Source: Prorocentrum cordatum (taxonomy: Eukaryota > Sar > Dinophyceae > Prorocentrales > Prorocentraceae). From it: 64,000 bases of DNA. The stretch lies in NCBI GenBank assembly GCA_963575745.1, contig CAUYUJ010020684.1, positions 1-64,000 of the forward strand. Reading direction: 5' to 3'. A model generated the notes under the pieces. The model saw nothing but the letters and a program-made list of their open reading frames with translations. It searched no databases and was not told the DNA's origin. Made by a program: the position numbers and the translations under genes. Below, piece by piece: positions 8,601 through 62,948 of this stretch; positions within the stretch are counted from its first letter, which is position 1; each line of letters starts with the position of its first letter.

Positions 8601-9323
8601 TCGCATGCGCCATGGACCCCGTCGTAAATGTCATCTGCGGCGTCGACCACTTATCAATGTCATCTCCGTCATCGCCGCCAGCGCGGTCGGTGCATCGGCG
8701 GCTAGCGGCTGGACGAGGAGGAGGGCGGAGGGGGAGAAGATCAAGGAGGAAGAGGTTGAGGAGGGGGCAGAGGAGGGGGGCGGGGACGGGTGCGAGTGTC
8801 CCGGGCTCCTCGGGTCTCAGAGCCTCATATGTGCATGGGAGGCCCTATGCGTTCCGCGCGGTTCCAGGCAAGACGTGAAACCCGGGCTGTTTTTGCACAG
8901 CTGCGGCGTGGACAGAGTGCACAGCTGCGGCGTGAGCAGATGGCGGGAAAAAAAAAAACATCGCGGCCTCTGCCCCACGAGGCACCTAAGAGACTTCAGA
9001 TGGCCCCAGCGAGAAGGGCCCAGCGAGAAGGGCTCCTCGGGGCCCAGCAATCCCGCCCGCCTCGATGAGAGACTGGGCGAGCCTCCGCGCTGAGAGGGTT
9101 CTGACAAAGGCCTTCCTGGCCCAGGTTCCTGGATGGCCCAGAGAACGATCTCGAGGAGATGGAGGAGCAAGAGGAGGAGGCGGAGTAGGTCACGCACCCG
9201 AGGACATGAGCGAGGCTCAGAGAGGAAGGAGGTGGGAGAGGAGTAGTTCCAGCACTGGTGCGGCGTTAGTGATGCCCCTCACACCGATCGTGGCCGCCGA
9301 GCGTGAAACATCTCGCCCCCTCT
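8601..9323. other. Intergenic stretch, no gene seen
   Basis: Purine-rich (GGA/GAG) between 8710 and 8800 and 9140-9200, with a short duplicated unit (CACAGCTGCGGCGTG) at 8896-8935. Open frames are short and biased in composition. Confidence 0.5.
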
Positions 9324-9344
9324 CTCAAGCCGGTTTGGCTCAAG
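9324..9344 (+). other. Relict spliced leader (DinoSL-like)
   Basis: AAGCC-GG-TTTGGCTCAAG matches 16 of 21 leader positions, including an intact 11-base 3' end. The bases just before (CTCAAG at 9324-9329) are also a leader 3' end, as expected if a second, older relic lies in tandem. It is 93 bases upstream of ATG 9438. Confidence 0.8.
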
Positions 9345-9437
9345 AGTGTTTATTATTTCAGGCCGCGCAGCGTGGCCGCTCGTGACTGTAGAGGTGCGGC
9401 AGCGCGCGCCTCGGCGTGCAGTCTGGCGGTCAAAACC

Positions 9438-11582: not shown

Positions 11583-11681
<99 letters not shown>

Positions 11682-12048
11682 CGGACAAGTAGGCGGACCA
11701 GGGTCCGTCCGCGAGGCGCACTGCGGTGCGACAACTCGCTAAACACTATTTGCGGCGGTGCAGCCTTTAGATACGAGGGCGGGCAACAAAAAACCCCTCC
11801 CCCGGCGCAGTGCGACAGACGCTACAGACGGCGGACAGACGATGATGATCTCACCTGTCAGACCGCGTAAAGAAAGAGGCCCCAACAAGAAAGGCGACGT
11901 GCTGACACGTGGCTAGGCGGCTTGGCAGACCGCCAGTTGGGCGCTTGGCCGCTAAGCGGCGCGCAGTGACGGGGCACCCCCCGCCCCCACGCCCTGACAC
12001 CGTGGACGCGGAGCCACGCGTACACACGGGCAGGCAGAAAGGAGGAGA
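10866..12048. other. Intergenic region with inverted-repeat motif and microsatellite
   Basis: At 11067-11150 the pieces GGGTGCTGAGAATAGGGTTTC and CCAGCACCCTGCGTTTAG alternate and can pair (GGGTGCT with AGCACCC). Bases 11340-11450 belong to the 'TCTTGGGGCC' low-complexity family also seen at 29.4, 30.5, 37.0 and 45.8 kb. Bases 11946-11962 contain the palindrome CCGCT-A-AGCGG just beyond the end of the minus-strand gene. No gene is visible. Confidence 0.55.
11587..11681. repeat. (GA)n microsatellite
   Basis: About 95 bases of GA dinucleotides with a short interruption (AAAAAAGAG) at 11638-11645. A similar GA tract at 27920-27994 lies beyond the other end of the 16 kb minus-strand block. Confidence 0.95.
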
Positions 12049-15000
12049 TTAGCGCGGGGCACCAGGTGGAGCGCCGCGGAACGATGACAGCATAGCTTGG
12101 ATGGTGAGTGACGGCACGGCACCATCGGGCGAGGGCGTGAGCAGCTCGGCGAAGGCTCGCCCGGCGCTGTGGAGGCGCTGGAGTAGAGGGCCTTGGCGAG
12201 CTTGGGCGGCGGCGAGGTCCGCGGCGAGAGCAACGCACCTCTGCTGGAGAGCAGCCATAGCCTGGGACAGCTCGGTTTCGCGGTCGGTGAGGGGTGGCTG
12301 CTCAGTGCCAGCGGCCGAGGGCCTCGAGACAGAGGCGAGGTCCTCGGTACGCCTGTCCAGATGGTGGACTAGCGTAGTGCGGCACCCAGTACGCTGTCGT
12401 CCGTCACCCTTGAAAGGTGACTGGAGGGGAACACGCGACCCCAGGGCTGGAGCCGCTAGGGCCACGCCCCGAGAGGTCGGGAGAGCCGCATCCTCTCGCT
12501 CAGCAACGATGGAAGCGTGGACGGGGCGCGAGGGCCTGTCTGGTTCAGTGCCCTGCGGGGGGGCTGAAGCCGCCCCCGCGGGCTGCCGCCGGTGGGGGGG
12601 CGGAGTGGTTTGCGCGGTGGGACCAATCATGATGCCGTGCAAGGGCTCTGAGGTCGGTCGCGTAGAAGGGTGGCGTCTCGGTAGGGCGGCATGGTCGGCA
12701 GCGTGGGGTGTCGGCGGTGCGTCGTCTATGCCACTCAGTCCGCGGGGGTCACCCAGGTCGTCGTCGGCGTCTTGGCGGTGGCCGATATCATCGTATGGGG
12801 GCGATGTCGCTCTCGGGGACGGAGTCGCGGTAGGCATCGAGAGGTTGCCCGACGGGGCAGGGTTTTCGCTGACTGGTCCGTCGTCCAAAGCGTCCGATCC
12901 CCCACCGAAGCTGAACAGGTCGTCCTCCTGTTCGTCAGCGTCTTGAAGGTGAGCGGCGTTGTCATGTGGGTGCGATGCCGCTCTCAGTGGCGGAGTCGAG
13001 GGCGACGTGCGGGTGCCCGACGGGGCAAGGTTGGCGCTGGCTGGCCCGTCGCCTAGGAAGTCAAGGCCCCCGCCAAAGCCGAACGGGTCGTCCTCCTGTT
13101 CGTCGAATATCGCCCGTTGGGCCTCGGCCCAGAGCTCGTCCGGGTTCTGTGGGATGTCTGGTCCAGCCGCGGGTGGTGCCTGGTCAGACAGCAGGGGATT
13201 TGGTTCCATTTTGTTGAGTTCCGCAGCTGTAAACCCAGCCCTGCGGTGTGGGAGGGGGAGTGTGCGGTGTCTACGCTCGTAGATGGCGACAGCGACTCCA
13301 TGAAGCACGGTCGCTTGGCGATGTCGTGTTTTGGCAGCTTCGACAATGTCGTCTGGAAGGTTATGAGTACGTGCCGCCGTTGTGGCGAGGGCGTCAGCCT
13401 GACGATTGAACTCCTCCGCGATGGGCCCGATGAGCCCGAGGTCGATGCCCATGTCGCCCAGGTGGCTTGCGATTTTCTCGACGCGGAACATGTTGGGCTT
13501 GGCCATGACGCATCGGTGGATCTTTTCCCAGAGCTCCACGTGCGTGCCCTGCGGTGGTGAGTGTCCGTCGATGATACTTTGGAACCCATCGACCACCGCC
13601 TGGTTGTCCACGAAAACGTGTACGGGCCGTTCAGCACATGCCGTGAGGTGGACAATGGCGAGGGTCTCCGCAAGCTGTGCGTTCTGCGTAATGCCGTGAA
13701 CGCGTGCACTGTAGTTCATGCGGTGGTCGATGCCGTAGTAGACGCCGTAGCCCGCTCGTGCTAGCAATGGGATGGCTTGGTTGGTGCATGCACCGTCCGT
13801 GGCAGCGTAGACCCATGTCCAACCAGTGTCGTGGTCAAGGTAGGTGGTGTAGGAGTCCTGGGCTGAAGCCGCAGGATCTCCCTCAGGTGGGGGCCGCGGT
13901 ATGGGCTGAGGTAGCGGGTCCCTCGCGAGGTCGGCCTGCAGGTCGAGGAGGGCTGGGTCTTCATCGAAGAGCCCGCAGTGTCTTGTGTGCGGCGGAAGAC
14001 GGGCCCACTGCTCGTCACTGATGAGGGTGGTGAGAGGGAGTCTTTCTCGGGCCCAGCACTTGCAGTCGCGGACAGTGTGCTCCTGAGTTTCCTCTTCCTC
14101 GTCGCAGTATCGGCAGATGGGGCTGGGGTCAGCAGACGTGTTTGATCGGGATCGTCGCTGTTGGGTGTGGTCCCCGCCCGACAGGTAGTTCAGGAGGAGC
14201 GCCAGCTGCCAGGCATTGCATTTGGCTGCTCCTTTCGTTCGGGCGAGCCACGTGCTGGCGAAGAGGTCGAGGCCCTGTCTGACAGAGGCAAGGTATCCAA
14301 GGTCGTGACGCCGTGGCTTGATCCTCCTCAGAAAGGCTCTGCGTTGTGAGGCCCGCAGCATGTGAAGGAAGGCGTTTTGGGGTAAGTTCAGCCAACTGAT
14401 CTGGCAGCCCCAGTCGTCGTACATGATGCCAAATGTGGGCCAGGTCCAACGGAGCTGCTGGAGCGACTGGACAAGTCGTCCGACAGGTCCTCCACCAAAC
14501 AGGGTCTGAACGTGGTGTTGGAGATCCCTGACGAGACCGCAGAGTGTAGCGTCGCGATTAACCTGTCGCCGCAGACACAGGAAAACTTCACGCTGCGTGA
14601 TGGCGTCAATCTCCAGGGCGTGTCCTGGGACGCACACGGCCATGAGAGTCCAAAACTCGACCCACTTGTTTCCCTTGGGGCGGATAGCCGCCTTAAGGGC
14701 ATGGTTGTAGGCAGTTTTGACGGGGCCTGATGGGGCTTGAATGTCGGTGCCCGTGGTACAGACGCTGGCAGCAAGGGAACGGGCGTGCCGCGCCTTAATA
14801 AGCATCGGCGATGGGAGCTTGCCAATGCGCGGCAGGCGACTAGTCGCCCTCCGAACACGGGCGTCAGCGGTGGCCGTGAGGTTAAGCGCGGCTGGAGCCG
14901 GCGCTGCCTCGGCGTTGATGTAACTCCCGACGAGCTTGAAGGAGTCGACCACGCGTAAGGGCCGTTCCGCCAGAGTGAGCTGGGTAACGGCGGCGTGAAG

Positions 15001-18000
15001 CTCGTCGGTGAGCGCCCACCCCGCCACTTTGCCAGGGTGAATGCGTTGACCTGAAAATCGATCAAACTTGGCGGTTTCATCAAGAGATTTCTGCAACTCA
15101 GGCGCGGTGTGAGTAGTGGAGTTGCTGTCGTCAACAAAGGTAGTGCTGAGTGATCGCGGAACGTATCGATGCTGTCTCTTGGTCCACACACACATGAGCA
15201 GCTTAATGTCGTCCAGGGACCAAGAGCTTCCCTGGAGGTGACCGTTGGTCCTGGCCAATTCCTTAGAGTACGCTCCGTTCATGCGGATGTAGCGTTTGTG
15301 GCGACTGTAGAAGTTTCTGCGGACAGTAACGATGTCTTGGGGGCACCCCGCGTGAAGCGCAAGGTTAAGGCAGATGTCCGTGATGAGGTAGTCGAAACAC
15401 TTCTGTCGGTCAAGGGCAGCCCCAGCTAAGGGAAGGAGTAAGGCCCTGGCGTGTTCGATGCGCAGGGCAAGAGAGGTGCTGACGTCCCCAATGGTAGCTT
15501 TGGGGACAGCGCCAAAGCTCGTGGCGTGGGTCCATCCTTTCCGCCAGTCCGTGAGGCTGCGGTAAGCTGGCGCTTCCCACGCATACATCCAAACGGAAAG
15601 CACCGAGAGAAGTCGTTGGTCCGTTGGGAGTTCGCCTCGGCCTTTTCGGAGGCACGGGTTTGGCACATGAAGGAGGGGTTCTGGGATGGTGCCAGTGCGT
15701 TGCATAGCGCGTAAGACGCTGGCGAAGAGGCGAAGGATGTCGTCGGGTAACTCCTTAGCCTCCTTAGTAGTCCAGCCGTCCAGTCCCCCCGCACGGCGCG
15801 GTGAACGGGTGCGAATAAAGTGGATGAGTTGGTCGTCGGTGAGGTGGAAAGGGGTAGCTGGTGATGGCGTAGGCAGCTCTTGTCGGTACTCGTCGTAGAA
15901 GTCAGCCCACGTCGGCATGGCTTCGGCGTCATGTCCTGCACGGGCGCGGTACCTGCCCAAGATGGGCTCCCAGGTGTCGACCATGAGCTTAAGCATGTCT
16001 TTGGTATTAGCAACAATGGCGTTGGCAGGGAGAATGTCGGGGACTTGTGCAGGTGGTGGTTCACAAGTGTGGTCTTCGTCGTTGTCCGTGTCGGGCGAAC
16101 TACCGTCGCTGGGGCTGAAGCCGCCAGCTTCGGTGTCAGCGTCGCTATCGTCCGTGCTAGCTTTGTCAGGTTTGAAGGCGTTGGTGTCGCAGTGGAGTTG
16201 CGTATCGTCAGGTGTGGTAGGCGTGCGGAGATACGCCGTGGGCGAGCTGTCAGCAGCCCGTGCGTATATGGCCGCCTTTCGCCCGCTTGGCTCGCGGACG
16301 CCCTCAGCCCATATCTTGATGCGTTCAGCTTTGGCACGGTTCGCACGTCGCGCCAGCTCTAAGTCGAGGTTTTGGATCAAACCGTCAAGGTGCTCTCCGT
16401 GAGGTGCTGGCTCGTCGGGGGTCCAGGCCTCGGGGAAGTCAAGGAGAACCGTGGGGCGCAGCTTGTGACATAGGAGGCGGGCCGCGGTCCACGTGCAGTC
16501 GATGCGCTGCGCTAGGTACGGCGGGATGGCACGGCAATCTAAATGATGGTGCTGTCCGATGAAGCGAAGCTCACAGAGTTGCCGATGGAGCTTGCGCAGT
16601 CGGTTCATGTGTATCGTGGAAGCTCCGTAGGTGGGGAAGGCGCGGGGGACAACTGGTCGCTCCTCGAACATGGGCGTGAGCCCGTGCATGGTGGGGGGCT
16701 TCTTTTTTGGGTGGTCGGGCGGTGGAGGTGGCAGGTCGCGCAGACGGGTGAGATGGTACTCATGACTGGCCTCGTTAGCCAGGGCGAACATGCGTTCCAC
16801 GTCGTCGCGTGTGTCGGCCTGCTCCATGCGGTCCTGATATCGCCCAGCGATGAGGGTCCCTAATGCCTGCAGTTCGCGACCCTCGTGAGCTCCATCGTTG
16901 GGAGGGTAGGGCGTGGGGGCGAGAAGGCGTCGGGCCGTATGGTCGAGGCGACTGAGGTCAAGCGTGACCTGCAGGCCAACATGGGACTTCGCTGGCAAGT
17001 CGCGTAGATAGCAGAAGTCGGTGACAAGGGATCGCGCCGCTTGGTTGGCAATGATATAATCGATGCGCGAAGTGCGGGGGCACTTGGTGACGCGGTCCCA
17101 GTCAGGGATATTGCCGTATGTGTGCATGGTGTGGTCTGGTGTGCCCTCAGCGACGTTAAACCATCCGTGCTGCATCATGTGCAGCAGGTGTGGATTGTCG
17201 TCGATGTTCGTGTTGGCGTCCATGCAGATGAAATACGGGGCTGAGCCGACCCTAGCGGCGGCGCAGTCAGCGAGCCGAAAAAGATCTGTGCTGTCTCCTC
17301 CAGCAATCCCGTAGAGGCTCGCTATGTAGATCCCAGCGGGCCCGTGGTTGTTTCGTCGCCGCCTGCGGCGGTGCTGAGTGCAGAGCGGGAGAAAGGCCTC
17401 GTGCCATCTTTTCTTGGCCTTGAGGGCGACGATACAGGGCGCAGTGTCGTCGACAGTGGAGTCGACAATGGCATCCTTAGAGAGGATGGCGACCCCTCCC
17501 GAGGCGCCAGTGTTGCCCACGACGGTGTGGTCTGTGCCGCCGTGGGCAGCTCTGCGCTGGGCTCGCGCCAGATCCAGGTCAGGTCCAAGACTGGCGTGGT
17601 ATCCCCCGTGGTGTGGATTGGCGGCGCTGGTAGCGATGGCTTGTCTGGTCGGCTTGGCATGTCGGGTCTCCTGCAGTGCTATGACTGCGGCGTTGTGGTC
17701 GACACCAAGAGCGGTGATGGTTGGCCAGTTCGCTGAGAGACTGGTGATGTTTAGGCTGACGAGGTGTATGGAGCGACCTGGCCCGTCTCCATCGGTGGAG
17801 CTGGGGTTTGCACGCCCCGCACGGTGTAGGTCAGCCTGACCCTCGCCCAGGTAGAAGGCTTGGCCACAGTAGGAGCTCATGGCGTTCCTATGGATTAGCT
17901 TGACCGGGGCTGAAGCCGCCGTCAGGCCAGAAGTATAGGCGAGACATGGTCGGCACTGCGCCAGGGGGGGTTCATAAACGTCAGTAAAACTGTCTCGAAA

Positions 18001-19221
18001 AATCCTCCTCACTCCTGTACCATAGGGGACGAGGGGAGGAGAGGTGAGACGGCAGCAGAGAGAGAGGGAGGCGACTCCTCGATCCGTCCTGCCGAACACA
18101 AAAGCAAAAGCGAAACGGCGGCGGCGGCTAGGCGCGGCAGCGGCACAACGCACGCGCATATACTGCGCACGCGACACCGCTGGTCCGTCCTGCGGTGGCG
18201 CGCCCGCCCCGTCAGTATCTTGATGAGCAGCATCTGGTGGAACAGCTCGAGCAGCGCGGTCGGTGGCCTGGCGCTGGGCCTCGTCCATGCCCGCTGCCGT
18301 GAGGCCCGCGTTGCGGACAGGGCTGATTCCCCGCGGGGCCGCCGCTGCCGCGGCAGCGGCTGAGGTGGCGGGGGCTCCGCCCCGACTCTGAGGTGAGAGC
18401 GGTGAGCCACCGCCGAAACCCGCCGCAAGGTCCTTGACACGGTACTTGTTCTTGAACGGGTCGAAGGTCGGCGCCTCGTCGATGGGGACGATCACGCGGG
18501 TGGGCAGCGGCGGCTCGTGGTCCGTGGACGGCGTCGGCTCGAGGTCGACCTGGCCAGGTTCGATGACGCTGGCACCGAAGCGTGGCACCACTTCGGGGGC
18601 TCGGCCATCAGCCTGAGTCTCGCGAGGCGGCGAGCTCGTGGAGCTCCCTGGGGCCTTGCGTGAGCTGTGGCGGCTGCAGGACCTGCTGCGCGGGACGCGC
18701 CCGCCCGTGTGGCGGTCGCGTGGCGAGGTCGCCTGGGCATTAGCGCGCTCGGAATCCGCCCTGCTCGGGGATCGGATCGGCGCCGCGCAGGGTGATGGGC
18801 TGGGCTGGCGGGAGGCGCTTGTGCCGCCCTCCGCCGTGGCTGTGGCCTGGTCAGGGTCGACAGCGTCGGGGCGGGGGCTGACGTGGTGGGCGCTTCCCTC
18901 GCTGTGCCGCGGGGAGGCGCTGTGATGCGCCTGGGTGTACGTGAGGACGAGCGGGACAAGCGGCTGCCTCTCCCGCTCAGGTGGGGCAGGTTTTGCCTGG
19001 GCAGGGCGCAGCGCTGCAGCCACGTTTGGCGGGGGCGTGTGCTGGCGCGGTTGCCAAGCACGCACGTTCGCATCACGCCATCCTTCAGGGCGCCCTGTCC
19101 TGCCACGGTTTGTTGCAGCCCCCTGGGCTGAAGCCGCAGGGGTTATCACTGCGGGCTGGTTGCTGGAGGTGCCATCATGTCGGCCTGAGTAATGGCCCCA
19201 GGCGCGCGTGGACCCTGGCAC
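12049..19221 (-). CDS. Non-LTR retrotransposon ORF2: endonuclease, reverse transcriptase, zinc knuckle, RNase H
   Basis: The frame is open for 2,390 codons. The first open codon is GTG at 19221; in-frame ATGs are at 18288 and 17880. ATG 17880 (MSSYCGQAF) directly precedes the catalytic part. Counting from 19221, residues about 477-754 are an APE-type endonuclease: SLNITSLS, ALQETR, DANTN, RIDYIIAN and SHVGL are all present. Residues about 1124-1424 are reverse transcriptase: GGLDGW, motif A as DRQKCFDYL (usually K-A-F-D) and motif C as FVDDSN. A CCHC knuckle (CRYC...HTVRDC) is near 1700-1718. RNase H spans about 1803-1947, with ATDGAC, AETLA, FVDNQ and RQADALA giving all four acidic catalytic positions. 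The C-terminal 440 residues are disordered, with two DEQEDD-FGGG repeats and a final coiled coil. All catalytic motifs are intact in one frame, so the element may be recently active. Family-B hairpins sit in the linkers between domains. Confidence 0.88.
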   Translation of the reverse strand: MPGSTRAWGHYSGRHDGTSSNQPAVITPAASAQGAATNRGRTGRPEGWRDANVRAWQPRQHTPPPNVAAALRPAQAKPAPPERERQPLVPLVLTYTQAHHSASPRHSEGSAHHVSPRPDAVDPDQATATAEGGTSASRQPSPSPCAAPIRSPSRADSERANAQATSPRDRHTGGRVPRSRSCSRHSSRKAPGSSTSSPPRETQADGRAPEVVPRFGASVIEPGQVDLEPTPSTDHEPPLPTRVIVPIDEAPTFDPFKNKYRVKDLAAGFGGGSPLSPQSRGGAPATSAAAAAAAAPRGISPVRNAGLTAAGMDEAQRQATDRAARAVPPDAAHQDTDGAGAPPQDGPAVSRAQYMRVRCAAAAPSRRRRFAFAFVFGRTDRGVASLSLCCRLTSPPLVPYGTGVRRIFRDSFTDVYEPPLAQCRPCLAYTSGLTAASAPVKLIHRNAMSSYCGQAFYLGEGQADLHRAGRANPSSTDGDGPGRSIHLVSLNITSLSANWPTITALGVDHNAAVIALQETRHAKPTRQAIATSAANPHHGGYHASLGPDLDLARAQRRAAHGGTDHTVVGNTGASGGVAILSKDAIVDSTVDDTAPCIVALKAKKRWHEAFLPLCTQHRRRRRRNNHGPAGIYIASLYGIAGGDSTDLFRLADCAAARVGSAPYFICMDANTNIDDNPHLLHMMQHGWFNVAEGTPDHTMHTYGNIPDWDRVTKCPRTSRIDYIIANQAARSLVTDFCYLRDLPAKSHVGLQVTLDLSRLDHTARRLLAPTPYPPNDGAHEGRELQALGTLIAGRYQDRMEQADTRDDVERMFALANEASHEYHLTRLRDLPPPPPDHPKKKPPTMHGLTPMFEERPVVPRAFPTYGASTIHMNRLRKLHRQLCELRFIGQHHHLDCRAIPPYLAQRIDCTWTAARLLCHKLRPTVLLDFPEAWTPDEPAPHGEHLDGLIQNLDLELARRANRAKAERIKIWAEGVREPSGRKAAIYARAADSSPTAYLRTPTTPDDTQLHCDTNAFKPDKASTDDSDADTEAGGFSPSDGSSPDTDNDEDHTCEPPPAQVPDILPANAIVANTKDMLKLMVDTWEPILGRYRARAGHDAEAMPTWADFYDEYRQELPTPSPATPFHLTDDQLIHFIRTRSPRRAGGLDGWTTKEAKELPDDILRLFASVLRAMQRTGTIPEPLLHVPNPCLRKGRGELPTDQRLLSVLSVWMYAWEAPAYRSLTDWRKGWTHATSFGAVPKATIGDVSTSLALRIEHARALLLPLAGAALDRQKCFDYLITDICLNLALHAGCPQDIVTVRRNFYSRHKRYIRMNGAYSKELARTNGHLQGSSWSLDDIKLLMCVWTKRQHRYVPRSLSTTFVDDSNSTTHTAPELQKSLDETAKFDRFSGQRIHPGKVAGWALTDELHAAVTQLTLAERPLRVVDSFKLVGSYINAEAAPAPAALNLTATADARVRRATSRLPRIGKLPSPMLIKARHARSLAASVCTTGTDIQAPSGPVKTAYNHALKAAIRPKGNKWVEFWTLMAVCVPGHALEIDAITQREVFLCLRRQVNRDATLCGLVRDLQHHVQTLFGGGPVGRLVQSLQQLRWTWPTFGIMYDDWGCQISWLNLPQNAFLHMLRASQRRAFLRRIKPRRHDLGYLASVRQGLDLFASTWLARTKGAAKCNAWQLALLLNYLSGGDHTQQRRSRSNTSADPSPICRYCDEEEETQEHTVRDCKCWARERLPLTTLISDEQWARLPPHTRHCGLFDEDPALLDLQADLARDPLPQPIPRPPPEGDPAASAQDSYTTYLDHDTGWTWVYAATDGACTNQAIPLLARAGYGVYYGIDHRMNYSARVHGITQNAQLAETLAIVHLTACAERPVHVFVDNQAVVDGFQSIIDGHSPPQGTHVELWEKIHRCVMAKPNMFRVEKIASHLGDMGIDLGLIGPIAEEFNRQADALATTAARTHNLPDDIVEAAKTRHRQATVLHGVAVAIYERRHRTLPLPHRRAGFTAAELNKMEPNPLLSDQAPPAAGPDIPQNPDELWAEAQRAIFDEQEDDPFGFGGGLDFLGDGPASANLAPSGTRTSPSTPPLRAASHPHDNAAHLQDADEQEDDLFSFGGGSDALDDGPVSENPAPSGNLSMPTATPSPRATSPPYDDIGHRQDADDDLGDPRGLSGIDDAPPTPHAADHAALPRRHPSTRPTSEPLHGIMIGPTAQTTPPPHRRQPAGAASAPPQGTEPDRPSRPVHASIVAEREDAALPTSRGVALAAPALGSRVPLQSPFKGDGRQRTGCRTTLVHHLDRRTEDLASVSRPSAAGTEQPPLTDRETELSQAMAALQQRCVALAADLAAAQARQGPLLQRLHSAGRAFAELLTPSPDGAVPSLTIQAMLSSFRGAPPGAPR

Positions 19222-22200
19222 GGGCGAGGTGGCCCGGGGAGGGCCTGCACGAGTGCACGCGGGTAGCCGATGACCGCTGGGTGTACCCTGGCGTGGGGGG
19301 CGTGGCCGTAGCTGGAGGCGGCTGCTCCAGCCGCCGCGGGCCTGGCGCCTATGGGGCCACGGTAATAGGCGGCAGCCCCGCCGTAGGCCGTGCTGCCGCC
19401 TGTCGGGACTCGCGCGGGAGAGCGGTAGCGTGGCGTGCTCGGCTGTCCTGCGTCGCGTTGGTCGCGCTGCTGAATGCGCTGCTGGTGCTGTTGATATCGC
19501 TGCTGGTCGGCTCTCGAGAGGGGGCGGGTGTCGGGGAGGATGGTGGGCACGTCGGGCCGCTGCCAGCCCCGATAGACGTGCTCGAAGGCGTGGTCTGGGT
19601 AGGTCTCCCCTACGGGTGAGTATCGCCGCACATGCTCCATGTAGTCGATGTTCTGCGGCTCGGAGATCGCCGTGATGTTTACAGCTCGCTGGTGCGCTGG
19701 TCCATAGAGGCAGAAACTACCACGGTTGCTGCGGTCGTGGTTTAGCTCGGCTTCGGTCGTGGCACGGCTCACCATGGCGTCGCAGAGTCGCATGTCGTAG
19801 TCGAGGGCTTGAGGCCCAGGACCACCCTCGGCGTCCCAGTACAGTACCACATCTCGCCAGCGGGTGCGGGTAGTGTGGATGCGCTCGGCGATCGACTCGC
19901 AGACGGTCCTGACCGTGACACGGTCCCTGTACATGTTGGTGATGGCTAGGGAGTAGGGTCGGCGGACCGTCTTGTTGAAGGTGAATTCCTCCTTGAGGGC
20001 CTGGTGGGGGCCGAAGAGCACGTAGCCTTCCCTCCAAAGAGGTTGGTCGGGGAACGGTTCTTCGGGCATCCCCGTTCCTGTGAACCCAGGTGGCCGCCTC
20101 GTGCCGTCAGGCAGTCCCTGCCTGGGGACGCGCCGCGGCCTCGGTGGGAAGTACCATTGACCCTGGTAACCTGCTTGGCCTGGTTGTGGAGGTTCCCCCC
20201 CGGGGCCTGAAGGCGCTCGGGGGGGTTCCTTGAGGTCGTGGTGGGCTGGCGCGTTGCCGAATTGGCGGGCAAGGATGTGCGGCGGCATCCCTGTGGCACG
20301 GACGTCGAGCAGGCTGTGTGGACTGGGGGGATGGGGGCACCTGCTGGACAGGCAGCATGTGTCGGAGTCCCTGTTGTCGGTGCTGTATGCACACGTCCAA
20401 CTGTTGCAAGAGTAGTCCGTGGACCAGTCCATAAGTGTACGCAGTCCGCTGCGGGCACAGTCTGGGCACGTTGGTTGGCCCGAGGTGCCGAGCTGCGTGT
20501 TGCGGCGAGCCGCACAGTACTGACAGCATTGGAATCGACACTGTAGGCAAGACCAGCGTCCTGGTAGAGGCGGGAGCGCATGCTCGTTTGTGCCTGGGTC
20601 GTCTGGGTGGGGTCGAGGGCGATCCCACAAGGGCCAGACGTCAGCAAACCAGGATTGGCCTGTAGTGCGGACAACCTCGGCGGGGAGGCGAGCGTCCTCG
20701 GCATGGCACTCGATCCACTGGGGCCCCATGTCCGCTGGTACCATGACCGTGCGCCAGGTGTCGCCCGCTTTGACGTGGACTTGGGTCGGTGCCCAGAGCT
20801 TAGTAGTGGTGTCGCCGTGGTCGTGGTGGAGGATGACCCAGCCGTCCCGCCCCGCCACCGCAGGGTTAATGACGCGATGGCCCATGACTGTCGTCCCCCA
20901 CGGTAAGTAGGCGCCGTCGTGGTGATCACCAGGGTCAAGCCAGACCTCGATGCCAGGGGCATTGACACGGGCCCGCACATCACGGACGTGGTAGGCGAGG
21001 ACGTGGTAGGCAGTCGGCTCCTCTTCCGTCTCAATGTGCTCCCACGTCTCGATGCCACTGTTGTCTGAGGTGGAGTTTCCGCCACTCTGTCGTGACGAAC
21101 GAGAGGCGGATCGCCGTGGGCGGGCGTGGCCTCGGGCGAGGGCGGCGGCCGCGCTGATGAGGGAAGGCGTACGGCGTTCGTCGGCTCCTGATGACGTCGA
21201 TGAGCGGTCTGGACTGTGCGCCAGGGCTGTGCCTGACTTGTGAGTGCGCGGTGGGCCAGACGCGGCCCCAGGGCTGGAGCCGCTGGGGCGCGACTCGCGT
21301 GCGTCAGGATGCCCCCGCACGGGGACGGCTTGCAAGCCAGTGTACACCAGGTCGATGAGTGGTTTCGGGTCCAGCTGGAGCTTGCGAAGCGAGACGCGTG
21401 GGCGGGGCTGGTTAGGGTCGTCCCTGGTGGCTGCTTCAGTGTCGTAGTGCTGTTTGGCCCATACTCGCGCTGCCTCTGGCGAGTATAGTGCCTGCGGCGG
21501 TGGCCACGCTGCCGCGATGACTGGTCTGCGCCTGGTGCTAGCTTCCTGGTCGTGAGCTTCAGCCGCCTCACGGAGATCTGGATGATCGTAGCCAGCGATG
21601 TGAGGGCGTGCGCACAGTCGCCCATGCCATAGGCGTGTGGTAGGGCACGGCACCTGGAAGCAGCTTCTGTGGGGGCGCACCAGTCCATGCGGATGAGGAG
21701 GCTCAGGACCCGAGGGTAAATGAGACGCGCTCCGTGGGCCTCCCCTTTCACGACGTTGTGCCTGTTTTCCCCGCGCGGTGGTTGGGTGGCCTCGCACATC
21801 CAGAGTGCGATGGGTCCCCACGCGAGGGTGTCGTCTTCGAGACTGTAGGGCGGGTGGGGCGGCATTGCGTACCACGCGGCCAGCGAAGGGTGCACGCTCA
21901 CGTACGTGCGGCCAACGTTGGTGCCAGTTCGACCCTTCGCTTCACGGCGGGGACCTGGCAAGAGGTGCCCTCCGCTGGCAGCAAGACGGGCCGCAAGGTC
22001 GCCGCGGGTCCCATGCCAGAAGACAGTGGGCGCGTCGGTGGTGGGTTGGCGGAGATCCCACGTGAGGTAGGGGAAGATTGTCTCGCCTGAGTTCCCGCCC
22101 GAGTCTTCCAGCACCCAAGTGAGGCGGTTCGGGGGCCTCTGCATGATGTCAGTCCACGGCCCCAGCGCTTGGAGTGTTAGATCATGTGTAAATCGAGGAT

Positions 22201-25026
22201 GGTCGTGGAGTCGCAGAGCGTCTTTGATGTCCTCTGTAGACACGCCACTGTTACCAAGCGCAAAGCCGTTTTGGTACAGGGCGTTGAGGATGCTCTTCGG
22301 CGGCACGGGGACCGCTGGGTCGCGCTGGATAGTGTTGCGTAAGTTGCGTGTCGGTGGCTTGAGGGCTGTGTAAGGCATACCAGGGCCTGAAGGCGCCTGG
22401 GGCCTGGCGGGTGATGCATAGCGTGCTCGCCGTCGTGGTGGTTGGGTGTCCGCGTCGGGAGAGGAACCACGAGCATCAGCATGTCGGAAGATGGACCACG
22501 GGCTATCGTGGGTGCACTCACGTGTTTCCCTTGCCTCGGTGTCGCTGCCGTGTGCTGTGGCATCCTCGTTAGTCGGTAGGTTACCGTATGCCGCGCCGCT
22601 TTTGGAGCCGTCTCGCGGGGACGGGCTGGTCGATCTTGGTGTGACAGACGAGGCTCGCGATACGGCGGCAGTGACTTCGACGATGGCGGCGGTGGTGGCG
22701 GTGGTGACATCGGCGACTGCGGCGGCAACTGCTGCGGCGTAGTGTTCCTGCAGCAGCGGATGTCGGAGTGAGTGCACGTGCTGGTCGTCGTGTTCGTCGG
22801 CAAGCGTGCACGGCATTGTGTATGTGGCCTCATCGCGCGGCCTCCTGCTCGGTTGGCAACAGCGGAGGCACCACTGGGCTGTGGATGAGTCCAGGGCCCG
22901 CGCACAGATGCGGGCTCCTACGTGTCCGACGGCTCCTTGAGCAAGAAGTTTGGCGCCGACGAGTAGAAGACCGCACACGACTCCACCCGTGGCAATAGCC
23001 CCGAGTTTGCCGCTGGCCCATTTCAGGACACCCCCGAGGCCGACCCCGACTGCGCTGGCTCCGCCCGAGACGCTATCTCTGAGTTTGACGCTGGTCCATT
23101 TGAGAGTGGCCCACAATGCGGACGTGACGTTGTATGTCGTTGTGCGTCGGGATGTGGTGGGCACAGATGGGCCTGGTGCCGCCGCTTCACGTCGTCGTCG
23201 TTGTCGGTAGCTGGGGTCTCGGCTCGGTGTCGGCAAGTACCCATCGATCTGGTCCTTGTACGGCATTGCTATCACGATGGCGTACGTGGCCACAAAGAGG
23301 CAGATGAGGCAGCCACAGTGTCGTGATGCCGCTGCGCTGTGCTGGGGCTCGTGGGAACCGCTGGCATCTGGGTACTCATCATCGATGGGGTCGTTGTCGA
23401 TGTCGGCCTGCCAGTGGTCAATGACACTGGGGTTGGAGTCAGTCACGTTAACACGGTATACAGAGGTGCGGGGCGTGGTGCTGCCACCTGCGGTCTGGGG
23501 ATGTCCAGGTCCAGCCAGTGCTGCAGCGGGGCTGAAGCCGCCACTGCGCGAGCTGGCATGAGCTGGCGATGCAGTGGTATGGCTTGTCGCGTCGGCGGCA
23601 GTGGCGCCTTCAGCGTCGTTGAGCTGTGCGCAGGGGTCGGCCTGGGCCGAGTTGTTGGGCGGACTGCTGTGCGACGAGGTGTGCCCTAGGTGGGGTTCAC
23701 TGTCGCGGTCACGCTGGGCCGTGTCGCCTGGTGGTGTCGTGCCGTCGCGATCCTGGGTTTCCATGTCGTCCTGGCTATCGTCCCCGTAGCCCAGGGATAT
23801 GTTGCTGATATCGTCCGGCGCGTGGAACGAGTCCAGGGGTGTGTCGCTGATGTCGCTGGCCGCGATGTGCTGGAGCAGCCATGATACGGGGTCGTCTGCG
23901 GCCTGATCACCCGTGGCGTGCTGGGCGAGGCCAGCTGGCGGTGGTGGGTTAAGCGGTTCCATCGGTGCCGCGGCGAGCTCCGCCTCGACAAGCGGCTGCA
24001 TGTCTGTCGGGTGGTGCAGGATCGCATCAGCGAGGTACGCCAGGGCGTCTTGGTCGGGTGGGGGAAGGCCTCTTGGTAGTAAGGCGTGGGCCCGTGAGAG
24101 GTATGGCGGCAATGGTGCCGTGAAAGCCTCAGGGCCGACGAGCTGGGCACGAGCGCCCTGGTATTCCAGAAGGAGGCCAAAGTAGCGAGTGGGGTACTCG
24201 CGGCTGCCCTGGATACGAGTGAGGTTGCGGTTGGTGCGCTGTCTGTCGGGGCCTGCTCTGTGCCAGATGTCCTCGCACATGTCGAACGCGGTGCGCTGGC
24301 GCAGGGCGTCGGTTGTGTCCTCAGAGTCCTCCTGGAAAGGTGATCGTACTGTGGCAGATGAAGCGTCGCCAGGATGTACGGGACGCAGTCCTCGAGCCAT
24401 GCCCAGAACACGTCCTGGTGGTCCTCACCTGGTGCCCACGCCGCAGCGCACGGTATGAGCCGGGCGCGGATCATCATCAGGTGCCAGAAAGCGGGGTCCT
24501 CCTCGGGTTCGCCCCTAGCGCACAGGGGGGTGGTGAGACCCGTGGGGCTATAGCGGGGCACGACAGCGGGGCTGAAGCCGCCACTGCGTGCCTGGCCTAT
24601 ATCAACGTCCCCGTCAAGGATCTGCTGCACCACGGTCGAGGCCACGCTGGGGGTGGATTTCGATGCATGTGTCGTAGTTGACAAGGGCGTGCATGCGCTC
24701 ACGATGGCGCCCAGCGGTCCGTTGCCGCACGGACCCGCGGCTGCGGTGCTGTTCACGATCGGGTCCAAAATGGTGCAGTGATCGTACTTGTAGATGCTGT
24801 CATCGTAAAGGTAGAAAAGAGTCCCACGTTCAGCGTGTCGCAGGAAAACCTCACCTCCATGCTGGGGCGCACCGCCTGAAGACGGGTGTGCTCCAGCGAG
24901 CGAGGGGAGGGCCAGGCTGCAGGCAAGGCGCCACATGATGGCGAGGCCTGGCGGGCGGCGCGAGCGATGAGCCAAAAGCTGCATGTCAGCACGCATCCTC
25001 AGATACCCCTGCATGCTCATGTACAT
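19146..25026 (-). CDS. Large membrane/cysteine-rich protein of the minus-strand element, two frame breaks
   Basis: Family not recognised. Coding character passes through three frames: 25026 to about 24340, then to about 21530, then to the stop at 19146. Each step is a net -1 shift, either real breaks, programmed frameshifts or consensus deletions. The N-terminus has a signal-like hydrophobic run (MWRLACSLALPSLAGA), then an Asp-rich segment. Two further hydrophobic segments follow: CLICLFVATYAIVIA (near 23300) and TGGVVCGLLLVGAKLLA (near 22950). Near 22040-21850 a TVFWHGTRGDLAARL...RTYVSVHPSLAAWYA region recalls the His/Tyr pockets of ADP-ribosyltransferases or KptA; this is tentative. Near 20560-20330 there is a cysteine cluster (CLQCRFQCCQYC, CPDC) that probably binds zinc. 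The tail is Gln/Arg-rich. It overlaps the ORF2 frame by 76 bases, and a hairpin begins three bases past its stop. Confidence 0.6.
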
Positions 25027-25085
25027 TGCAACAATCACGCCCCCTGCAAGATGACGGGTGTCCCTACACCAGATAGCTTGCGCGT

Positions 25086-25103
25086 GCTGCTGCCAAAACT
25101 GAC
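25086..25103 (-). other. Possible weak spliced-leader relic
   Basis: Read on the minus strand the segment is GTCAG-TTTTGGC-AGCAG. It shares TTTTGGC and parts of both flanks with the leader (about 13 of 17 positions with one insertion). It lies about 60 bases before ATG 25026 of the large membrane-protein gene. The position fits, but the match is weak. Confidence 0.35.
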
Positions 25104-25197
25104 ATGATATGACAAGAAAGAGATACGACGCGAAGAGAGAAGAGATGCCTCTGAAGGCGCTTCCTCGGAGGGCTGAGGCAGGCTCTCTGAGGCACCT

Positions 25198-25949
25198 TCA
25201 ATAGGGTTCCTGGGTGACCCGACCCTTGTCTTTGCCTTTGTCAGCCCCTGGGGGCCCCGTCCCTGGGGTGACCTGGCCTGGCTGGTCGATCCACCCGCAG
25301 ACAACCACGGGATCGGCAACTGATGCAGCTTCCTCCTTCTTAGTTTCGAGAGTGGCCACCTGTGGCAGGTGGATGGTGCCCCCCGTGAGGTGCCCGAGGA
25401 GGGCCTGGATGTCGCCACGCAGTGCAGCGGCTTCGGCGGTTGCCGTCTGTTGCTGGGTGACGACGGTGGCAAGCCCCCGTTCCAAACCTGAGACGTGCTC
25501 CGTGAGTGTGGCCTGGGAGGAGAGAACGCCCGCAAGCTGAACCTGCATGTTATCCACCGTGTTGGCAAGCAGCTCGTGCTGTTGTTCCATGTGTTGGATG
25601 CGGGTCGTGGCGGCATCTGGCAGTTTAGGGGCCGATGCGAAGCGTTCGCCGAAGGTGTTGAGTTCGTGGGAAGCCACGCTGTATTCATCACCTGATGAGA
25701 GGATCTCGACGTCGTCAGCGTCGCCTGGTACTTCGGCGGCTGTGGCAGCGTCCCCTTCGGTGTGGCCCCCATCTTCAGCCGCCACCGTGCCAAGCTGCGG
25801 GTCATGACCACCTGATCCTTGGACGGCCGTCTGCTCGGCAGCTCCGTCCGTGCCGTGCGGGGGTGCAGAGGAGCTGCGGCCTGGGGCGCCGTGTGATCTT
25901 GCGTGCGGCGTGGCGTCGCGTTTCCCGCTGGAGGATCGGTGGCGCTTGG
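25198..25949 (-). CDS. Acidic coiled-coil segment, probable C-terminal part of the ORF1-like protein
   Basis: The frame is open through the stop of the upstream 540-codon ORF (25950) and continues with a basic linker (AKRHRSSSGKRD). It then has an acidic stretch (DDVEILSSGDEYS) and a long coiled coil (QHMEQQHELLANTVDN, then QATLTEHVSGLERGL). It ends RVTQEPY at 25198. Joining it to the preceding ORF needs a -1 shift near 25955. An RNA-binding region followed by a coiled coil is typical of LINE ORF1 proteins, although there the coiled coil is usually N-terminal. It may instead be a separate small ORF. Confidence 0.55.
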
Positions 25950-27572
25950 CTAAGGCTCCTCCTTGGGGATCAGGAGCGGTGCGACGCCCTTGCCTTTGGG
26001 CGTGGCAGTCATGAGGTCGTGGAGGTAAGGGCTCTGGGCCGCTTTGGTGAGGAGTGTGCCAGTGGCGGGGCTGAAGCCGCCACCACGGGCTGGCGGCGTC
26101 ACAGGCTCTGTGATAGTGGTAGGCGTGACGATGGTAACGTTGTCCCTCTTCGGCACCACCTCAGCCAGCGGGGCCTCGGTGATGCTCCACGGGATGGGGC
26201 ACCCTGCGACCTGTACCGTATATGTGAGTGGGGGACGATGGGCGCGCACTAAGGCAAACTGAGCCGAAGTGGCTGGGTCCCAGGCGGTGTGGTAGACCTC
26301 ACAGTCCCATTTAACGGACGGGCCCGTGAGAGTCTTGGCGAGCTGGGTCAGCGTGGCGTGGCGTGCCGCAATGCCAGTGATGCGGTAGCGCGTCTTGGCG
26401 AGGGTGGCTTCGCAGCCGCGGATGCTGACGGCAGCAGCCTTGGCGGCGTCTGACCCTCGTGAAACACGGATCCCCAATAAGCCTGACTTGCCGTGCCTGA
26501 CGACTCCCAGGGCCTTGAAATCCACCGACTTCTGGAACGCATCTGCCATCGTGATGGGCTGGTCCTCAGGGAACCACACGGTCTGGTACTTGTCTGCAGT
26601 GGGCTCGTCTGCACCTACGTTGCTGAGGTCGTAGGTGGCGCCGAGTTGCCCTGAACCCGCCAAGACCTTGTCGACCGCTTGAAGACTGACGCCGAAGGTG
26701 GCAGCCAGGGACCTCTTTCCGACGCCCGATCCAAACCTGCCTAGGCTTTTGCAGGGTTCGAGGATGGTGACGGCTTTAAAGTTGCCGTGGAAGAGGGCCT
26801 TGAAGGTGTCCTGGAGCTGACTATCGAGCTCCTGGCGGCGAGCGTCTTTCTTGGACTCCCTGTGCTTTTGGTTTTGGCGCGCCTTGTCCTGTGGAGCGGA
26901 GTCCCTTCGGAAAGGACCCTTGGCGCGTGGACCACCGTTCACGGGGGCACCTCCCGAGAACTGGTCCTCGAAGGCCTGATGCATGGAGGGGACTGCGGCG
27001 ATGGCCTCGGTTTCATGTATGGTCGCCCGAATCCAGCATACGTGGTCGGCAGGGTCGATGGTGGCGACGGCTACTTTTTCCGTGCAGGCGACTTCCTTGG
27101 TGCCCAGCTGGTACACGGTCACGGGGACGTGCGTGTGGACCACTTTGGGCGCCTTGGGGTGACGCTTCAGCACGGGGACGGCGAGCTCGGTACCGACGTA
27201 GTTATCGTTTTTTGGGCCCATGACAGCAATCGCAAGCTGACCCGTGGTACGCTTACCCTGCTCGAGGTGGTGTTGCAGCAGCCGTTCACCGCTCTCGTAG
27301 TCGTGGAGGCTGATACTGGGCTTGTACGTCTTGCCGTCGTCAAGTGATGTGGGTTCGGCGAGGACTGGGACCTTCCAAAAGGCCGGGTCCAAGGCAATGA
27401 ATTGGGTGCCCGCAGCCTGAAGACGTGCGGACCCAGCTGGTGGGTGTGATGTGTCACCGCCAATGCGCTTAGGCTTGCTGCGCTGGTGGTGATCCAGCGT
27501 GTAGCTGATCTGGTTGGCGGCGCACATGCGGATCAAGGCACTGCCGAGCTTCTTCGTGTTGGTCTTGTGCAT
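25950..27572 (-). CDS. ORF1-like protein of the minus-strand element
   Basis: A 540-codon ORF from ATG 27572 (MHKTNTKKLGSALIR). The N-terminal half has repeated beta-rich segments (HTHVPVTVYQLGTKEVACTE). A very basic region (KARQNQKHRESKKDARRQEL) follows at about residues 225-250. The second half holds two alternating helix/strand segments (FKALGVVRHGKSGLLGIRVS and ATLAKTRYRITGIAARHAT) suggestive of ferredoxin-like RNA-binding folds. No motif fixes the family. As the first gene of a three-gene unit whose last gene is an EN-RT-RNase H polyprotein, it is the natural candidate for a nucleic-acid-binding ORF1 protein. Hairpins lie near both ends (27403-27434 and 26062-26083). Confidence 0.65.
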   Translation of the reverse strand: MHKTNTKKLGSALIRMCAANQISYTLDHHQRSKPKRIGGDTSHPPAGSARLQAAGTQFIALDPAFWKVPVLAEPTSLDDGKTYKPSISLHDYESGERLLQHHLEQGKRTTGQLAIAVMGPKNDNYVGTELAVPVLKRHPKAPKVVHTHVPVTVYQLGTKEVACTEKVAVATIDPADHVCWIRATIHETEAIAAVPSMHQAFEDQFSGGAPVNGGPRAKGPFRRDSAPQDKARQNQKHRESKKDARRQELDSQLQDTFKALFHGNFKAVTILEPCKSLGRFGSGVGKRSLAATFGVSLQAVDKVLAGSGQLGATYDLSNVGADEPTADKYQTVWFPEDQPITMADAFQKSVDFKALGVVRHGKSGLLGIRVSRGSDAAKAAAVSIRGCEATLAKTRYRITGIAARHATLTQLAKTLTGPSVKWDCEVYHTAWDPATSAQFALVRAHRPPLTYTVQVAGCPIPWSITEAPLAEVVPKRDNVTIVTPTTITEPVTPPARGGGFSPATGTLLTKAAQSPYLHDLMTATPKGKGVAPLLIPKEEP

Positions 27573-27766
27573 GTCGTACGTGGCCTGAGCTCATCCGCGT
27601 TCAGCTCGGCAAGCCCGTTGTATGCGGCCGTGGGGCGGTCAGACCCCGCTTGCTTGAAAGCTGCGATGCAGTCCTGCTTGCGTTGGAGGAGAGACCCTTC
27701 AGCAGCAGGACGTGAGCTCGGAGGCTGCTTGGAAGAGCGACGGCGCTCCGGCTTACTGGGGGCCAT
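27533..27766 (-). CDS. Short basic ORF, possible true N-terminus of the ORF1-like protein
   Basis: ATG 27766 opens a 77-codon frame (MAPSKPERRRSSKQPPSS, then LLQRKQDCIAAFKQAG). It has better coding character than a random frame. It overlaps the start of the 540-codon ORF in the -1 frame. Either it is an upstream ORF or a one-base deletion separates it from the main ORF. Confidence 0.4.
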   Translation of the reverse strand: MAPSKPERRRSSKQPPSSRPAAEGSLLQRKQDCIAAFKQAGSDRPTAAYNGLAELNADELRPRTTCTRPTRRSSAVP

Positions 27767-27919
27767 TGCTGCGGGCGCTCTGGTGGGGAGAGGTGACGCG
27801 AATCAGTAGGGTCCTGCTGGGACCCCTCCGGTCTCGCGAGGCCTGGGAGTCTGGCTCCGAGGCGGGGCGCTTCGCGTCGCGGCTGCGGTCTGAGTGCTGG
27901 GCACTCTCGAGCCGAGACT

Positions 27920-27957
<38 letters not shown>

Positions 27958-27994
27958 CGAGAGAGAAAAAGAGAGAGAGAGAGAGAGAGAGAGA
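27920..27994. repeat. (GA)n microsatellite
   Basis: About 75 bases of GA dinucleotides with small interruptions, just upstream of the minus-strand ORF1-like gene. Confidence 0.95.
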
Positions 27995-28059
27995 GCGCGG
28001 CCGTGGATCTCGGAACGCGCCCCTCCCCAAACGCATCAGGTGGACATTCAAACCAATAT

Positions 28060-55345: not shown

Positions 55346-55711
55346 AGTTTTGAACGCTAGCAAGTTTCTTTAAATCTTGATTCTCCCCGGACAGCTCTCT
55401 GAGAGCTAGAGGGTTTAGATTAGAAGCCGGATGGTGGTCGTTCCTGCCAGCAGCCTATATTCGCTGCTCCAGAATCGTCGACGTCGCAGGGGGTCCGGGA
55501 GCGGTGTTCTCTGAATCAGACAGCAACCCGCCCCCGAAAACCTGACCCCGATTCCCTGACTGAACGCTGTCCTGATCTGGTGTCGTCGTTGTCGCCGCCG
55601 CCGCCGTCGTCGCGGCGCCGCCGCCGCCGCTGCCGTCGTCGTCATCGTCGTCGTCGTCACCGTTGTCGTCGCCTCCGTCGCCGCCGCCGCCGCCGCCGAG
55701 GCCGCCGCCGC

Positions 55712-55770
<59 letters not shown>

Positions 55771-55900
55771 TCGTCGTCGTCGTCGTCCTCATCGACGTCG
55801 TCGTCGTCGTCAACGTTAACGTCGTGGGCGTCGTCGTCGTCAACGTCGTCGTTGTCGTCGCCGTCGCCGTCGCCGTCGCCGCCGCCGCCGCCTCCTCCGC

Positions 55901-55953
<53 letters not shown>

Positions 55954-56095
55954 GCGTCGTTGTCGTCGTCAATGTCAACGTCGTCAGCGTTGTCGTCGTC
56001 GACGTAAAAGACGTCGCGTCGTCGTCGTCGTTCTCGTCGTCAACGTCAATGTCAACGTCGTCAGCGACGTCGTCGTCGCCGCCGCCGTCGTCCTC
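55346..56095. repeat. GTC/GCC trinucleotide region
   Basis: Bases 55575-56090 are dominated by CGTCGT and CGCCGC triplets with AACGTCGTC interruptions. Bases 55430-55570 are non-repetitive with no recognisable gene. Confidence 0.9.

Positions 56096-57119
<1,024 letters not shown>

Positions 57120-62914: not shown

Positions 62915-62948
<34 letters not shown>

Follow-up and report, generated by a model that had tools for sequence, protein, structure and literature searches.

Fifteen near-evenly spaced hairpins in the RNA of a giant LINE from Prorocentrum cordatum as candidate docking sites for RNA assembly

The window analyzed here, 64,000 nucleotides of contig CAUYUJ010020684.1 from Prorocentrum cordatum, contains a non-LTR retrotransposon (LINE) of ∼16 kb (positions 11686–27919, ends approximate), which has minus-strand orientation, with (AG)n/(CT)n on both flanks. 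The ORF1 part lies at 25953–27590 (minus strand), where 546 amino acids are open in the window copy; in copy L043, the ORF1 open frame spans 868 codons. The endonuclease, putative reverse transcriptase, Cys-His, and RNase H part of a large ORF2 follows at 12049–17880 (minus strand), and a 4385-codon open frame containing this part is found in 9 of the 127 scored copies. An APE-type endonuclease domain (Pfam Exo_endo_phos, E = 8.2e-06, 26.2 bits versus a cut-off of 24.5) and an RNase H domain (profile A1 versus RNase H1 chains, E = 6e-05) are present. The match to RVT_1 stays under the Pfam cut-off (E = 0.19); the FVDD motif of the reverse transcriptase, spotted by eye, sits in a block that is invariant between the LINE and P0002. 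ORF1 and the middle of the polyprotein gave no convincing Pfam match. No relatives turned up by tblastn in other collections (A1 against viral contigs; A5 against viral and genome contigs), and a third protein search yielded P0002 alone, which had already been found. The regions C2:430000–439900 and C2:381000–390399 matched neither the LINE nor the partner element described below. The LINE family is apparently abundant and young. The genome that carries it comprises 4 billion bases.

The LINE possesses 15 hairpins, all on the same (minus) strand. In the sense RNA, each hairpin has a variable outer stem, a bulged C, and three base pairs (G-N-C) that close a U[U/C]CA tetraloop. Hairpins 1 (27408–27432, core GUC-UUCA-GGC, bulged C) and 2 (26062–26086, GGC-UUCA-GCC, bulged C) are located in ORF1, followed by hairpins 3 (24867–24891, GUC-UUCA-GGC, bulged C), 4 (24563–24587, GGC-UUCA-GCC), and 5 (23523–23547). 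Hairpins 6 (22378–22402) and 8 (20198–20222) carry the core GCC-UUCA-GGC, hairpins 7 (21265–21289), 12 (14883–14907), and 15 (12438–12462) the loop UCCA, and hairpin 10 (17901–17925) has one extra bulge in the outer stem. The remaining sites are hairpins 9 (19119–19143), 11 (16106–16130), 13 (13854–13878), and 14 (12555–12579). At the DNA level, the motif GGCTGAAGCC occurs eight times in the window (0.3 expected), always on the plus strand and within 12562–26078; these copies, together with TGGA-loop, GCC/GGC-core, and GCC/GAC-core variants, make up the total of 15. The original prediction had placed 14 copies on the plus strand of the window, which is correct for the strand and one short for the count, and had assumed a 2-nt GA loop, which is instead a TGAA or TGGA tetraloop (sense UUCA/UCCA) closed by three base pairs. 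The double core change that it described for two copies is present at 20205 and 22385. Three pairs of hairpins (12445/21272, 23530/24570, and 13861/19126) share sequence beyond what is needed.

The letters of the motif stand on the plus strand, as predicted, but transcription of the element uses the minus strand, and the sense RNA accommodates the hairpin better than the other strand does. The common core is found in 15/15 minimum free energy folds of the sense RNA versus 10/15 plus-strand folds, and the inner eight pairs contain seven G·U wobbles in sense versus two in antisense. Of the proposed RNA or single-stranded DNA signal, the DNA half is disfavored by this bias. The recurrence of same-strand hairpins whose outer stems vary and still pair turned out to be stronger than first described. 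Their covariation score is 0.685 versus 0.163 for shuffled alignments, and none of 500 shuffles scored as high; such a covariation test, a covariance model, and a genome scan had been called for. The covariance model (R1, filters off) returned 15 matches in the window at 27.8–36.9 bits, which are its own training set, and its next best match in the rest of the window reached 17.0 bits at 62416 (E = 0.19), in line with the claim that no copy lies outside the block. No Rfam family matched at the gathering score, and no tRNA was detected. The genome was scanned by pattern search only, which gave 22,473 matches to the GGCTGAAGCC pattern versus 15,575 to its reverse, with clusters where copies of the element lie.

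The hairpins are spaced at ∼1.1 kb, near evenly and along the whole transcript, which is new beyond the original prediction. None of 20,000 random placements was as good as the 13 strict copies by either spacing measure, and for all 15 hairpins none of 20,000 matched the bin measure and 3 of 20,000 were as even by CV, in a test made only after the pattern was seen and on positions picked by eye (hairpin 1 was placed at 27412, 3 bases off, with negligible effect). The GGCTGAAGCC counts, the spacing, the covariation, and the R1 search together rule out chance or composition as the origin of the hairpins. None of them occupies the position of a LINE 3′ stem-loop; all 15 are internal, the nearest lying ∼750 nt from the 3′ end.

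Five long copies of the LINE retain 73 of 75 hairpins (E up to 0.1). Hairpin 6 of L007 is lost through a 16-nt deletion across it. In the continued outer stem of hairpin 4 in L002, L004, and L006, one G-C pair became A-U by a double change, and another pair is broken by one change. Substitutions, counted with gaps excluded and only where alignments reached 250 bases and 85% identity, affect 3 of 1670 hairpin cells versus 3272 of 83,989 in the element, and none of 20,000 shifted sets was as low. Under the same thresholds and with coding segments set by eye, third codon positions changed at 2 of 556 sites inside hairpins (41 expected) versus 1873 of 25,617 outside, although the element copies are related by descent and comparisons with expected counts therefore overstate significance. 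A further 30 copies, counted under the same thresholds, differ at 1 of 1869 hairpin cells (for third positions, 1/623 versus 1.29% overall); this set is borderline on its own by the shifted test (839/20,000). This sole change produces a CUCA loop, a form absent from the other hairpins.

The reading frames of the hairpins split 9/5/1, as the earlier claim of different frames had it; therefore, the peptide is not what is conserved. The three frames and the synonymous constraint rule out a protein motif as explanation and, with the covariation, bear out the view that a structural signal is maintained. At the protein level, the peptide over hairpin 1 (SARLQ) is kept in 6 of the 8 ORF1 relatives that reach it, down to ∼57–66% identity, and the peptide over hairpin 2 changes from GGFSP to GGSSP in P0004, as expected from a UCCA loop (judged from protein sequence). 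The relatives P0003, P0004, P0006, P0009, and P0010 span 47–91% identity. P0009 and P0010 (47–50%) possess neither GGFSP nor SARLQ, and P0002 (39% over 1246 columns) is devoid of the segments with the hairpins at 16113 and 14890 and of the peptide at 13861. The sites are therefore not fixed at that distance.

A partner element of ∼7.0 kb, known from one locus, has only its 5′ and 3′ ends in common with the LINE, and tblastn with six LINE frame segments found no match in it. Six hairpins of this type occur in it, all sense and none antisense, with stem sequences that differ from those of the LINE, at a density of 0.86/kb versus 0.93/kb in the LINE. These hairpins show covariation of their own (0/500 shuffles as high). 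Their intervals (129, 902, 2078, 114, and 1644) are not regular, and partner hairpin 718 is located downstream of the stop codon that ends the nearest long ORF. Among the hairpins of the LINE copies and the partner, there are close doublets 114–182 nt apart. In 29.2 kb of non-element DNA, a negative control that samples few host genes, the best R1 score was 14.2 bits and no hairpin was found. A pair of GGCTGAAGCC motifs 1080 bases apart in C69 was considered as another element and rejected, the hairpin architecture being absent.

Covariation, confinement to one strand, synonymous constraint, and the sense hairpins of the partner indicate that the hairpins are selected cis-acting RNA sites. Most likely, they would serve as multiple docking sites for a protein by which the long RNA is built into an RNP or particle, a reading of the combined evidence to which we give about even credence. 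Among the functions listed in the original prediction, packaging or assembly would be the best fit. The binder could be an element-encoded ORF1p, a part of the polyprotein, or a host protein, and would contact the bulge, the loop, and the inner stem at each site. Once bound, the sites may give the 16-kb RNA a compact form, as an RNP or particle, for reverse transcription; this would resemble the way in which small RNA viruses use dispersed packaging signals. If assembly proceeds by dispersed sites, each mobilized RNA, the non-autonomous partner included, would therefore need sites along its length. A bolder proposal, possible rather than probable in our judgment, is that the LINE has a virus-like assembly code. 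About one high-affinity docking hairpin per 1.1 kb would then act as a ruler of length in building a defined RNP or particle on the 16-kb RNA, and non-autonomous elements would re-evolve these sites within sequence of unrelated origin so as to travel with the LINE.

A host RNA-binding protein might use the hairpins for export of the long RNA or its protection from cryptic splicing, premature polyadenylation, or decay. With evenly spaced sites about every 1.1 kb, the whole transcript would be covered, and both the synonymous constraint and the presence of hairpins in the two elements would agree with this role. We regard it as unlikely, however, as neither a host factor nor a matching gene turned up among the few host genes sampled, and R1 scores at most 17.0 bits in the window outside the LINE and at most 14.2 bits in the 29.2 kb of other DNA. 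Ribosome slowing at the boundaries between domains of the giant polyprotein, as an aid to its folding or processing, is a very improbable function of the hairpins. The sites do fall in linkers ∼370 codons apart, near domain size, and two coincide with gaps relative to P0002, but the close doublets and the position of partner hairpin 718 beyond a stop speak against it, and pausing would require no conserved loop or bulge sequence.

Even spacing is also what re-entry or template-switch points of the reverse transcriptase would show, if a sequence-specific landing each 1.1 kb helped to copy a 16-kb RNA. The deletion across hairpin 6 in L007 and a length difference at 24601–24722 that begins 13 nt from hairpin 4 fit such a process, and the identical 25-nt stems at 23530 and 24570 suggest copying between sites. 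Yet these events number only two, and the only partial copy, L012, stops matching the LINE near 17721, ∼180 nt from a hairpin (the 9 kb beyond lie outside the comparison); we hold this explanation to be improbable. The shared sequence in the three hairpin pairs could point to a mobile DNA hairpin inserting into linkers or palindromes, as originally suggested. This reading is strongly disfavored and has a very low probability, as the hairpins occur in a single orientation (15/15 and 6/6) and not in both, are near-evenly spaced and under synonymous constraint, are absent elsewhere in the window, and are kept at 73/75 sites in five copies rather than being polymorphic for presence. Integron attC hairpins share one orientation, an extrahelical base, and a distance of ∼1 kb, all of which apply to the LINE hairpins as well. 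Nevertheless, DNA recombination sites of this kind are scarcely credible here; long open frames pass through the sites, which do not delimit discrete cassettes, the wobbles favor the sense RNA strand, the five long copies show no rearrangement between hairpins, and no integrase was seen.

Docking of a protein to the hairpins would have parallels in known systems. The operator of the MS2 coat protein consists of a bulged A, 2 bp, and an ANYA loop. In operators of this type, as in the LINE hairpin, a short inner stem with its tetraloop is preceded on the 5′ side by a bulged base; the LINE, however, has a C bulge, 3 bp, U[U/C]CA, and 15 sites. To our knowledge, known LINE RNA signals are terminal. 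The 3′ stem-loop of stringent LINEs is a LINE RNA hairpin recognized by the machinery of the element but, as far as that account goes (PMC4176376), an element of the 3′ tail, in contrast to the 15 internal sites in coding sequence found here. The hairpins described here bear on the selection and packing of LINE RNAs. The dispersed packaging signals of single-stranded RNA viruses, as outlined for human parechovirus 1 (PMC5431903), likewise comprise many hairpins through coding RNA with one kept recognition motif and variable stems; MS2, STNV, and HBV are named as further examples. At 15 sites in 16 kb, the LINE is sparse compared with the 60–96 packaging sites given in that outline for parechovirus (PMC5431903), which counts against packaging. 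The LINE also differs from the viruses in being a retrotransposon without a known coat protein or particle, in its almost invariant motif of bulge, inner stem, and tetraloop, and in its near-even spacing. Two hallmarks of packaging signals are nonetheless seen in the LINE, namely a structural motif shared by numerous sites along its length and selection independent of coding. If the hairpins are an assembly code, they would explain how a parasite element exploits the LINE despite little shared sequence and would link non-LTR elements to the packaging logic of RNA viruses.

The block between 11.7 and 27.9 kb of the window (GC 60.6%) is a single element read from the minus strand (11686..27919; hereafter LINE). 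Its large ORF comprises an APE-type endonuclease (Exo_endo_phos match, 8.2e-06), a reverse transcriptase (RT) block with FVDD and a Cys/His motif that were both recognized by eye (RVT_1 match only E 0.19; zf-RVT E 0.17, under the cut-off), and an RNase H region with a profile match to RNase H1. P0002, a protein relative from public assemblies (sources lgn and ena), aligns with the element protein at 39% identity over 1246 columns. Judged by these features together, the element is most likely a non-LTR retrotransposon. Frame breaks are present in the window copy, whereas the copy on the fetched stretches L043/L044 has an 868-codon frame and, after it, a single giant frame, open up to an N stretch of the fetched sequence, and 9 of 127 scored copies have a frame of 4385 codons. 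A protein search of the genome yielded 8,897 first-look candidates, of which 127 were scored, all at 100% rounded identity; by these figures, the LINE appears to be a large and young family. Upstream of the endonuclease (22900-25200, minus strand), the polyprotein features signal-peptide-like and membrane-spanning-like stretches, noted by eye and to our knowledge unusual in a LINE.

(AG)n/(CT)n tracts adjoin the LINE at both ends. On contigs C2 and C21, LINE copies stand head to tail across such tracts, with junctions at L002 7810-7813 and L008 6829-6848 of the fetched sequences, which suggests (CT)n ends or microsatellites of this kind as the target of the LINE.

The LINE carries 15 hairpins, all situated inside the element and in its sense RNA (numbered 1-15 from 27408..27432 to 12438..12462); the original prediction was right about the single strand but had counted 14. 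In sense orientation, each hairpin consists of an outer stem of 5-7 bp, a bulged C, 3 bp, a tetraloop, 3 bp, and the returning outer stem; a few outer stems carry a mismatch or an additional bulge. Columns 8, 9, 11, 12, 14, 15, 16, and 18 of the 25-column alignment are invariant across the 15 hairpins. Inner pairs 1 and 3 show zero variation, and inner pair 2 is G-C in 11, C-G in two, and U-G in two hairpins. The outer stems indeed covary as had been proposed, all seven outer pairs being altered on both sides at least once. Paired cells amount to 91.3% of 150; the value is 63.0% for shuffles and does not exceed 54% when the structure is slid, a control that leans towards the structure because the structure was drawn from the same 15 sequences; the independent test is provided by the partner element described below. 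Minimum free energy folds contain the core in 15/15 sense but 10/15 plus-strand sequences, and the inner eight pairs (120 cells) hold seven G·U pairs in sense vs. two wobbles in antisense. With filters off, the covariance model R1 scores the 15 hairpins, its own training set, at 27.8-36.9 bits; the scan is informative for the absence of further matches, and the next-best match in the window (17.0 bits, outside the LINE) bears out the claim that no copy lies outside the block.

In order of increasing window position, successive hairpins are separated by 117, 1299, 1029, 1223, 1795, 1218, 1079, 1067, 1113, 1145, 1040, 304, 1195, and 1343 nt. In a post hoc test, run once the pattern had been noticed, 11 of these 14 gaps share one 1.35-fold bin (0/20,000 random placements), and a coefficient of variation as low as observed arose in 3/20,000 placements of all 15 hairpins; for the 13 strict copies, both measures gave 0/20,000. 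Exceptions to the even spacing are two close doublets and the 1795-nt gap. The 304-nt gap is 181-182 nt in the copies on C2, C37, and C67, all of which lack window bases 24601-24722. This stretch of 122 bp, located 13 nt away from hairpin 4, is present on C21 and thereby distinguishes two LINE subfamilies.

At E up to 0.1, 73 of 75 hairpins are still found in five long copies (C2, C37, C67, and two on C21); hairpin 6 is gone from one C21 copy through a 16-nt deletion, and hairpin 10 is altered in the other. When one partial copy is included, 3/1670 cells differ in hairpins, whereas 3272/83,989 differ in the element, and 0/20,000 shifted sets reach a count as low as that of the hairpins. Third codon positions are changed at 2/556 sites inside hairpins (40.7 expected) vs. 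1873/25,617 outside. In the RT region of 30 further copies (30 of 127 scored; three hairpins each), 1/1869 hairpin cells differs and 1/623 third positions is changed, compared with 1.29% overall, the shifted test on these copies alone being only borderline (839/20,000 as low). The sole change creates the loop CUCA, absent from every other hairpin. In three related copies, an outer pair of hairpin 4 carries a G-C to A-U double change, which probably arose once, and a second outer pair is disrupted there. The hairpins do occupy different reading frames as predicted, split 9/5/1 over three frames, with overlying peptides of the AASAP/APSGP, GGFSP, and RLQ types.

On C2, a LINE copy and a partial LINE copy flank a second element of ∼7.0 kb. 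Its ends share 90% identity with LINE 27881-27995 (∼40 nt of it outside the CT tract) and 83-87% with the LINE 3′ end (11586-12044). Apart from these ends, blastn finds matches of hairpin size only, and six LINE frame segments gave no tblastn match at E 0.01. The partner element possesses six hairpins, six sense and none antisense, two of which feature a bulged A and the cores GUC/GGC. Under the LINE structure, 98% of their 50 cells pair, with a covariation score of 0.650 vs. 0.191 (shuffles as high, 0/500). The doublet 2345/2459 has a stem identical to that of LINE hairpin 14 (34-36 matching positions), a likeness suggesting that it may be copied. Hairpin 718 follows the stop codon of the long ORF closest to it, and the intervals (129, 902, 2078, 114, and 1644) are irregular in this one copy at one locus.

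In 29.2 kb of other DNA of the genome, no R1-type hairpin was found (best 14.2 bits). Across 4.128 Gb (21,875 contigs), the core pattern GGCTGAAGCC has 22,473 matches vs. 15,575 for its reversed form, an excess of ∼6,900. Among the first 100 places listed, the clusters retrieved comprise the five long LINE copies, the partial copy, and the partner element; a pair on C69, also among these places, belongs to neither element. ORF1 has nine relatives (47-98% identity). At hairpin 1, the peptide SARLQ is kept in six of the eight relatives reaching it (P0003, P0004, P0005, P0006, P0007, and P0011) and replaced by SPQAA in P0009 and RSQAA in P0010. At hairpin 2, reached by five relatives, GGFSP is kept in P0003 and P0006, with GGSSP in P0004 and GHNP in P0009 and P0010. 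In P0002, the segments bearing the hairpins of 16113 and 14890 have no counterpart. As read from the peptides of relatives, not their DNA, the hairpin sites appear to persist over moderate, not large, distances. P0005, 98% identical to the LINE ORF1, is filed under a Myxococcales MAG and is probably eukaryotic contamination.

The window contains further repeats. A second hairpin-like repeat, TTCCGGGGTTGCCCCGAGT (GGGG-TT-GCCCC), occurs at ∼12 places on the plus strand between 582 and 51700 (8-12 copies on a single strand, depending on word length); for longer words, none is listed within the LINE. It is perhaps the family A of the original prediction. A 56-nt family, GAGCTCTACGAGG...GGTTGACGGTT...CCGCCGG, has ∼10 copies at 52919-63357, and a near-pure G run of hundreds of bases starts at ∼51945. 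An ORF at 9303-10865 (plus strand) matches C-5 cytosine methylase (E 4.8e-19); such genes have been reported within dinoflagellate retrotransposons, according to work cited in PMC10449503.

The combination of a loop, bulge, and inner stem that hardly vary with an outer stem free to change resembles a protein-binding RNA site. The hairpins recur along the RNA and are used again in the partner element, which indicates a function affecting what becomes of the entire RNA rather than the translation of one product. We favor a whole-RNA role in which the hairpins would serve RNP or particle assembly. Dispersed RNA packaging signals have reportedly been studied in MS2, STNV, and HBV. Among the matches listed from the open literature (titles and abstract starts), nothing describes dispersed hairpins in LINE coding RNA, and a categorically new mechanism is possible. 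A working analogue is parechovirus, in which many stem-loops sharing a common motif are bound by the coat protein (PMC5431903).
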